From positions 8,235,649-8,299,648 of the forward strand of contig OZ025868.1 of assembly GCA_964019415.1 (NCBI GenBank): a DNA stretch of 64,000 nt. Direction: 5' to 3'. The notes beneath the pieces are model-generated. The model ran no database searches. It worked only from the letters and a program-made list of their open reading frames with translations, and had not been told where the DNA came from. This document shows positions 5,245 to 10,846 of this stretch, in pieces (position 1 is the first letter of the stretch; every line of letters starts with the position of its first letter). Position numbers and translations under genes: made by a program. Origin of the DNA: Ianthella basta. Lineage: Eukaryota; Porifera; Demospongiae; Verongiida; Ianthellidae.

Positions 5245-8200
5245 ATGGGCAACTGGAGAGAATGCAACTATCCTTCTTGGCTCTTTAGGTTGCTAGTGAT
5301 CGTGAGTTTATAGGCTACGCATACACAGTGTGATGCTACGTGTGTGATCGCGATATTATATCTTTCTTTTCAATCCTCTGCTGCTTGATTATATAGTGAT
5401 TAACCAATAGCGAGCTTGCGCTTCATAAAACTTATGCACGCCTAACTACGTTTAATCAGCCACCCTGCACGCCCAAGTACTAGTGGATGGACGTGGTACA
5501 GCTTCTTGCTTTTAATGGTCCCACGATTGGCAATGGTAGCTGTGTTAAGTTGTGTAGCCGTGGACACAGCTAAGCAGTCGCAACAGAATAACTGATCTCT
5601 AATCTTGTTCAGACCAAAGTGTAAATTAAATAAATATATTCCCTTTCCACATGCCTGGCTATAGCCTTCCTGAGTAAAGAACGACATGCATGTTAGATGA
5701 TAGGACAAGTTCAGACAGATACTTGCTCATAGAAGTGAAATGGCAATTATGATAGTTCATGTGTTTATGTGTGTGTTTGGAGGTGTGTGTGTGTGTGTGT
5801 GTGTGTGTGTGTGTGTGTGTGTGTGTGTGTGTGTGTGTGTGTGTGTGTGTGTGTGTGTGTGTGTGTGTGTGTGTGTGTGTGTGTGTGTGTGTGTGTGTGT
5901 GTGTGTGTGTGTGTGCATGCTTGTGTGTGTGTAAGTGTGCAAGTGTGTGTGCATGCTTGTGTGTGTGTAAGTGTGCAAGTGTGTGTGCATGCTTGTGTGT
6001 GTGTGTAAGCGTGCAAGTGTGTGTGTGTGTGTGTGTGTGTGTGTGTGTGTGTGTGTGTGTGAGTGTGTTTTTTTGTGTCCATGTGCCTTGCTTTTAGGTA
6101 TTAGTATTTGTACGATATTAATTAGTACATTACTTTATTCTTTAATGGCAATTAAGAATCCTGTATTTCAGGTTTCACCCCAAAGCATAAATAGTATAAG
6201 CTTAGCTCTTGGTGGTTGCACGTCACTATAGGTTTCTAAAATGGCAAGGACACTCTGCTTAAGCTTGGGGCTATATAACCAGCATATTCTATATGGCATA
6301 CAAATCATTGCATATGCAACCTGCACATATAATCATTGGTGCAAAGCACAATGCTCTTTCATAGCTATTTACAGCACTGACTGACTAGCCAGGTTTTATG
6401 GCCAGCCGTATTTTAGTGACTTTATGAGCACGCAAGGATTGATGTGTGCAATGTACAGTGGCCAAATCCTTGCAAAGACAACCTACCTAATGAAAGAATC
6501 TTCCTTCTCATGTGCAATTGAAACCCAAAATAGCTTGTCGTGTATGTCGTAGTAACGTCAATTGCATAATCATTAGTGCGTTAGGCAAACAGTACAGTAG
6601 AGACCTGAAGTACATATGGCAACTATCCAAGCATCCATTAAGAAACTATGAGAGCTTAACTCATATTCGCTAGTTAGATCCTATCTAAACACTTTAGGCT
6701 CTAAAAAACACTTTTTAGTAAATAACATTAAAATTTGCTTCTAAAGTTTGTAACAAGGTGAATGATTGCATGGTAAATATTAGAAGATGTACTATTTAAA
6801 GATGTTTCCTTAAAAGATTTGGATCTTAACTATAGCTCCCTCCGGAAATAATATCTAAAACATAATTTCAATTACACATATTTCACTCATAGCATGTGTC
6901 ACGTGACCTCTCCTTCCGCCCATGCATGAAACATTTGGTCAAACTTGACCCAGAAATGTGTATCACAAGTTGTCACTAATCAGGCACAGAAGCACATTAC
7001 CTCTTTATCCTCAAAAACAAAAATGGAACCTTTAGGACTGGAGCACTGTAGGCCATTGTAAAAATAGGACTGCGGATGGTGGCAATTCACCAATAGTTAT
7101 TGTGCGTTTGTTCACTTTACTGCATGTGCATGGTCTCTTGCAGGTTGCACTTCTGTTCACAGGGTTGGCACTGATTGGAGCAGCGGTGTTTACTATTGGA
7201 TACAACAATGCAGTCAGCTACAGGTGCATGTATTGCATCATTAATGATAATTCATAATTATGCATATTGCATACATCTCTTGTCTCCTATAATTATTATA
7301 TTCAATGTAAAGTAGATTCAGCTCATGCAGACATCTGTTTTAATTTCTATATCTGAACTACTTGCAGTATCCCCATTGACGTCGATAGCACTTCTGCTGT
7401 CATGAGCTTCTTCTGGGAGCCCTACATTTCCGCATCGGTCTTATCTTTCATTGCCCTGTTGCTTATGCTGGTGAAGGGGAGTTTGATGGGCCTTTTCCAT
7501 TGTTGCAAAATCAGCTACAAGAACTGGTGGATTATTTATGCAGTCACATCACTAGTATCCTTTAGAGTGTATGTTAATTATGTCTGCCTGTTTGAATAAA
7601 TTTACTGTACTACTGCATACTATAAACATGCAACTACACTGTATACACGTACATCAGTGTATCCAGGGCAGGCCCTTAAGTGTATAAAGAGCGTCTTATG
7701 GTACTGTTCTACCTGTCCTGAAATATCTAAGTATAACCCTTACTCTAATTGAGTTTCAAGATAGTTAAAGTTACTGCCCACATTCAGTGTATATATTATG
7801 TTCCTATTCTAGAGCTGAAGAAGGTGATCCTGTACTATATATACATAGTGCCTCCCATATCCTAATTGGTGTGCCATTGTTCTGTTTCCTCAAAAGCTGT
7901 ATTGAACTTGACCGAGTACTCCAGGCTTTTGCCATCACAGTGGTATTGCTGTGCTTGAACGGTTATTTTCTTGTTCAGATGAGAATACTTCTAACGACAG
8001 GAAGCCGAGTACAGTTTAATGAAACTGGAGATGGGATTCAATTTCCTCAGTCAGCCATTGATCAGATCTTTGCAGGGGCATTTATTGAGGTCTTCTTCAT
8101 GGTAAGCTGTTACACGTATATAAGGATTGGAGTTTATAGTCTAACTTAGCATGACGTACATATTATGTCAGCATTGGTAGTCCTCTCGCAAGCTTAAGTA

Positions 8201-10846: not shown

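Follow-up and report, generated by a model that had tools for sequence, protein, structure and literature searches.

Two tandem four-helix modules probably fused into predicted eight-helix membrane proteins in the sponge Ianthella basta

Eukaryotic SWEET (MtN3/saliva) transporters arose from internal duplication of a three-helix unit, and the odd number of helices in each unit requires an extra linker helix. In the MAL family of the MARVEL superfamily, MYADM is described as carrying two four-helix MARVEL domains with eight predicted membrane segments, and in that account MYADM and MYADML2 are eight-helix, two-domain proteins found beside four-helix, single-domain relatives (PMC10216460). For the four-domain voltage-gated sodium and calcium channels, whose membrane domain was repeated by internal duplication, the cited work describes a U12-type intron that has been kept in the first repeated domain (PMC6259924). 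Here we describe a locus of the sponge Ianthella basta that recalls all of these systems, in a window of 64,000 nucleotides (assembly GCA_964019415.1, contig OZ025868.1, positions 8,235,649 to 8,299,648 of the forward strand). Two genes in this window, genes 2 and 4, resemble MYADM and MYADML2 in architecture only. Like the channel genes they combine an internally duplicated membrane domain with a retained U12-type intron, but they encode different proteins and have this intron in both copies as well as in nearly all single-module relatives. Unlike in SWEET transporters, with which the comparison is one of internal duplication only, four plus four helices keep their orientation without a linker helix. 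Judged by hydropathy only, each module has four helices, as MARVEL domains do; membership of that superfamily was rejected, as no module scanned matched a MARVEL profile in Pfam searches to E = 10. On the sequence evidence set out below, genes 2 and 4 very likely each form one transcription unit, encoding an eight-helix protein in which the four-helix module occurs twice in tandem.

Gene 2 (5245-10846, forward strand) consists of nine exons in a single open frame. Its splice sites, like those of gene 4, are of the GT-AG or U12 type, and its predicted protein has 363 residues. The first module, A, comprises exon 1 (5245..5301; MGNWRECNYPSWLFRLLVI, donor GTGAGT), exon 2 (7144..7223), which carries helix 1 according to the exon model and hydropathy, exon 3 (7368..7554) with helix 2 and the start of helix 3, ending at a U12-type donor (GTATCCTTT), exon 4 (7925..8101) with helix 3 and the start of helix 4, and the joining exon, exon 5 (8606..8710), in which 23 codons of the module A end are followed by 12 codons that appear to be an absorbed exon 1 of module B. 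After the inter-module intron (8711..9535), module B continues with exon 6 (9536..9615; helix 1), exon 7 (9808..9973; helix 2 and the start of helix 3, U12-type donor GTATCCTATG), exon 8 (10476..10652; helix 3 and the start of helix 4) and exon 9 (10784..10846; the end of helix 4 and the stop TAG), all on the forward strand. When the exon models were re-derived, the coordinates and phases that the first-pass annotation had assigned to genes 2 and 4 proved correct. This extends to its statements that exon 5 of gene 2 has no stop and reads KRFPIALTS up to a GTGAGT donor, and that the helix 1 exon of module B begins in the matching phase; the exon ends at 8710, the donor is at 8711, the phase is 0 and helix 1 starts at 9536. 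In the double genes, module A has exon-end phases of 0,2,0,0, the joint is in phase 0, and module B shows 2,0,0, as its apparent exon 1 lies within the joint. The order 0,2,0,0, common to both modules, also occurs in the window's three complete single-module genes, which have their stop in exon 5 (all on the forward strand: gene 1, five exons, 137..3382; gene 3, a near-copy of gene 1, 15245..18451; gene 6, 60828..62676; genes 1 and 6 served for comparison).

The first-pass annotation also held that no exon 1 is visible before module B. That statement fails, as exon 1 appears to be fused in frame into the tail of module A exon 5. The 105 nt of this exon in gene 2 read VWAWVFYTLAHAVEKKDDDSGSH-MSSKRFPIALTS, that is 69 + 36, and the 36-nt tail (8675..8710, forward strand) includes the former start codon. 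The related proposal that the KRFPIALTS tail takes the role of exon 1 is borne out by its size, initiator methionine, phase, donor and first intron bases, all of which match single-module exon 1. For example, the tail and exon 1 of gene 1 (MASGVVVRILAV, 36 nt) both comprise 12 codons, with other single-module first exons reaching up to 19, and the coding part of single-module last exons is mostly 20-33 residues. We scanned 4 kb upstream of each helix 1 exon for an ATG followed by 8 to 25 codons and a phase-0 GTRAG(T/C) donor. For each of the three double genes (the third is described below) the nearest candidate before module B was the tail of module A exon 5, namely MSSKRFPIALTS for gene 2 and the third copy and MTKCIPVTLTS for gene 4, and the scan detected no further start exon between the modules. 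In the same scan, 15 of 20 single-module rows yielded a plausible first exon (score 2.58 or more), and the other five (s8, s12, s15, s16 and s19) gave no candidate or a poor one. The scores of the module B tails, 1.70 to 2.17, lie below those of the plausible single-gene first exons (2.6-3.7).

In addition, the intron after the joint begins with GTGAGTCATCAG in gene 2 and the third copy and with GTGAGTGATCAG in gene 4, and introns after exon 1 begin with GTAAGTGATCAG in the gene 1 type and GTGAGTGATCAC in gene 5. GTRAGT followed by [GC]ATCA occurs at 7 of 343 GTRAGT sites (both strands, 313.6 kb), and these seven are the three joining-exon donors and four single-module exon 1 donors. The pattern was spotted first and counted afterwards, and owing to near-copies the seven sites amount to about three independent lineages; we therefore treat it as supporting evidence and not as proof. 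A point against the fusion reading is that the joining donor has a T at position -1 (AGT|GTGAGT). Taken together, the exon 1 scan, the length of the tail and the match of the intron start indicate that module B did not lose its exon 1, which instead became part of the last exon of module A. The former gene boundary thus remains traceable at the joint in an exon-1-like tail with its methionine, phase and intron start, albeit with lower scores.

The first-pass annotation had ascribed the same arrangement to gene 4, and this is confirmed. Gene 4 (19854-25030, forward strand) has nine exons in one open frame and a predicted product of 377 residues. Its module A (19854..22684; exons 19854-19910, 21518-21597, 21729-21915, 22287-22463 and 22553-22684) ends in CIPVTLTS, within the apparently absorbed module B exon 1 at 22652..22684, before a GTGAGT donor at 22685, and module B (23383..25030) follows with exons 23383-23462, 24183-24363, 24658-24834 and 24968-25030, the last with a TAA stop. 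The count of two double genes falls short, as a third lies in the same genome at C1:8225278-8230624, stopping 5 kb short of the window. The search covered one assembly of 209 Mb in 96 contigs, and its counts are those of best candidates: the joining exon was found at three sites, the exon 4 sequence of module A at six (three A copies at 91-100% and three B copies at 61-63%), and no double genes beyond three. The joining exon of the third copy is identical to that of gene 2 at 35/35 residues, and length differences among the three double genes are whole codons (exon 5, 105, 105 and 132 nt; exon 7, 166, 166 and 181 nt); the joint is for these reasons more than chance. Between genes 2 and 4, dS is 0.257 and dN 0.130 over 363 codons, and dN/dS is about 0.5 for the whole gene. 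The region is rich in tandem copies, in which repeat collapse could have produced an assembly error, and the genes could also have decayed and lost their function. Both are highly improbable, as the joint occurs at three sites, one pair of which differs with a dS of about 0.26, and splice sites, phases and frames are intact in all three, with the dN/dS just given. A further point against the fusion reading is that helix 1 of module B (9536-9615 versus 23383-23462) evolves fast between genes 2 and 4, with a dN of 0.657 and a dS of 0.254; positive selection on this helix is not claimed (Fisher p 0.066).

An open frame with two homologous units runs continuously across the joint in all three double genes. 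From this frame, the whole-codon length differences and the dN/dS given above we infer a single mRNA across both modules. All three also retain the former start ATG, so module B could have a transcript of its own. If the donor at 8711 were unused, an in-frame TAG would follow at 8798-8800, that is, before 8800 (the equivalent stop of gene 4 is at 22718-22720), and an unspliced module A exon 5 would stop after 64 codons in gene 2 or 55 in gene 4. Among the family's 21 other last exons, four (s11, s14, s20 and s21) have 46-74 residues and 17 have 20 to 33, and an unspliced module A ending would therefore fall within the family range. The long last exons of these four C1 and C3 paralogues are also why stop loss seems to be recurrent in the four-helix family. 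The conserved ATG, the downstream stops and the long last exons are what one would expect of two overlapping genes with a shared exon, in which A reads through the 8711 donor to its stop and B starts at the ATG at 8675 from a promoter in module A intron 4 or exon 5, with the joined form minor or absent. We consider this arrangement improbable, because the read-through differs between genes 2 and 4 in sequence and in length (29 versus 11 residues past the donor), and because all three copies retain a perfect GTGAGT donor. Moreover, between the third copy and gene 2 the read-through has 0 synonymous and 2 non-synonymous changes and exon 5 has 2 and 0, which are small numbers.

The comparison of intron and flanking sequence bears on the same question. 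In BLAST of gene 2 against gene 4 the 5' region is conserved (4953-5122 at 78%, 5214-5927 at 82%), as is the 3' end (10450-12085 at 88%), which favours a single transcript. Global alignment upstream of the start codon is less favourable, with only 67% over 150 bases and 57% over 600 bases. The inter-module intron gave no BLAST match between the two genes, and no conserved promoter-like block was found between the modules, which is a further point against overlapping genes. The gene 2 intron is 98% identical to that of the third copy and unalignable with that of gene 4, at 49%; by itself this low identity is weak evidence, since two introns within module B are similarly low (58% and 53%). An AATAAA occurs in the inter-module intron once in gene 4 and in neither gene 2 nor the third copy. 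A further possibility, to which we give a low probability, is that the joining exon has a dual use, as linker of the eight-helix protein and, through its kept ATG, as alternative first exon of a four-helix protein made of B only. If true, one locus of an undescribed membrane-protein family with two U12-type introns per gene would make both the fused pair and a free half, in a ratio set by promoter choice or splicing.

The fusion of a duplicated four-helix module, as proposed by the first-pass annotation, remains the best reading of the continuous frame in three copies, the matching phases, the failure of the scan to detect another start exon and the grouping of A with B in a tree. In this tree of 24 modules, three A and three B copies lie on one side of a branch and 18 single modules on the other (support 100/98), with the A rows together (99/99) and the B rows together (100/99). 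Gene conversion of exon 4 was rejected as the cause of the A-B grouping, which survives removal of this exon at 95/89, with a long-branch warning from the program. The tree leaves out gm1 (a near-copy of gene 1), gene 5 (exons 1 and 2 only), the last-exon-only matches x363, x364 and x369, and isolated matches to helix 1 or other exons, for example near C1:8332644, 8342255, 8401317, 8405131 and 8412771. Among the rows included, s8 is without exon 2, s7, s15, s16 and s17 are without exon 5, and s10 has a short overrun past the donor including one stop, which the tree program treated as a gap.

These data are also relevant to whether the fusion joined two family members that had already diverged, and not a gene and its recent duplicate. 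In protein sequence A and B share only 40-42% identity, although this exceeds the 29-32% of A to single modules, and their dS is above 1. With A left out B falls nearest to genes 1 and 3, and with B left out A falls nearest to s14, on long paths throughout, and the program's warning is of long branches meeting. We nevertheless regard a fusion of older paralogues as rather unlikely, because of the separation of A and B from the 18 single modules, which holds when exon 4 is removed, and because A and B both have a 177-nt exon 4 with the stretch LVQM(R/K)IL..TG(S/T)RVQF(N/S)ETG.GI, found in 0 of 3 aligned single-module genes of the window. The simplest history consistent with the sequences would be tandem duplication of one four-helix gene followed by fusion of last exon to first exon, and fusion of tandem duplicates is a well-known, ordinary mechanism. 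An ancestral five-exon, four-helix gene would have been copied in tandem, and a rearrangement would have deleted the stop of the upstream copy, the intergenic stretch and the promoter of the downstream copy, so that the last exon of the former continued in frame into exon 1 of the latter. This exon 1, with its start codon, would have become a cytosolic linker and the first turn of helix 5, and its old donor would still splice to helix 1 of module B. The fused gene and a single-module neighbour would then have been copied into three blocks. A likely effect would be a covalent A-B pair in a fixed 1:1 ratio, in which A diverged and B stayed closer to the family consensus at its C-terminal helix.

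Single-module relatives lie at C1:8.22-8.41 Mb, C1:9.29-9.33 Mb and C3:7.79-7.83 Mb, and double and single genes occur together in three repeated blocks with spacings of 14.9 and 15.1 kb. These tandem blocks occupy 1-11500 and 15109-26300 of the window and C1:8220836-8230624. Genes 1 and 3 are nearly identical (dS 0.007) compared with the dS of 0.257 between genes 2 and 4 of the same blocks, a mosaic pattern pointing to conversion or uneven exchange. In the region 55995-58127, gene 5 is represented by exons 1 and 2 only, and a gap of about 200 N is present at 57928-58127. Other elements of the window include a 25-kb array of a 35-bp unit (30594-55369, about 695 copies, strong strand skew) and an element of about 840 bp with three 54-bp units in each of its three copies (about 667-1505, 13441-14280 and 15728-16566), two of which lie in intron 2 of genes 1 and 3 and two of which are 99.3% identical. 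We also noted 57-bp tandem arrays downstream of genes 2 and 4 (11850-12097, about 4 copies; 26077-27207, about 20) and, at 29484-30656 on the reverse strand, broken open frames that by eye have the look of a LINE-type reverse transcriptase.

The U12-type intron lies within helix 3. Its donor, RTATCC, is present in 24 of 25 modules, and in a search for a TTCCTTRAC-like site a YTTRAC branch motif was found in the last 45 nt of the intron in 22 of 25; none of the 23 other donors of the window genes is of this type. Within the window these donors are at 1898, 7555, 9974, 16961, 21916, 24364 and 61542, and they occur in paralogues outside it as well. The genome contains the minor spliceosome RNAs U12 and U6atac over their family cut-offs. 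In paralogues s20 and s21 (C3:7790986 and C3:7824853) the donor is ATATCC and the 3' end of the intron is CAA before the expected exon start, which may reflect an AT-AA intron or a shift of the acceptor. A GC donor of intron 4, TTG|GCAAGT, is present in genes 1 and 3 (2745 and 17814) and also in s9, s11, s18 and s19.

Kyte-Doolittle analysis, which considers hydropathy only, finds four segments in genes 1 and 6 and eight in genes 2 and 4. Since the number of helices in a module is even, the fused copy would keep its membrane orientation. An N-terminus on the inside is weakly predicted from the distribution of lysine and arginine (12 inside versus 7 outside in both double genes) and from sequons in the outside loops. 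Pfam searches by hmmscan to E = 10, with three proteins and eight members, gave weak scattered matches only, the best being 7TMR-DISM_7TM at 0.011 in one of the eight members, and a PDB profile search gave nothing convincing (best, a 5-HT4 receptor fusion at 0.11); we attribute these matches to chance similarity of hydrophobic sequences. No relatives turned up in prokaryote genome contigs or in IMG/VR, and no paper on the four-helix family was among the matches listed in our literature search. The family is undescribed in the libraries searched (Pfam and PDB).

Finally, the locus is a clean case of tandem duplicates turning into an internally repeated membrane protein, in which the lost gene boundary is still legible from the old start codon, the old donor and the first intron bases, with single-module relatives alongside. 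The U12-type intron in both halves places the duplication relative to that intron. Moreover, since neither Pfam nor the PDB gave a match to the four-helix module, the locus indicates a family that is undescribed and has expanded locally, and the fused gene may lock together, as a fixed A-B pair, modules that would otherwise act as separate chains, perhaps in pairs.
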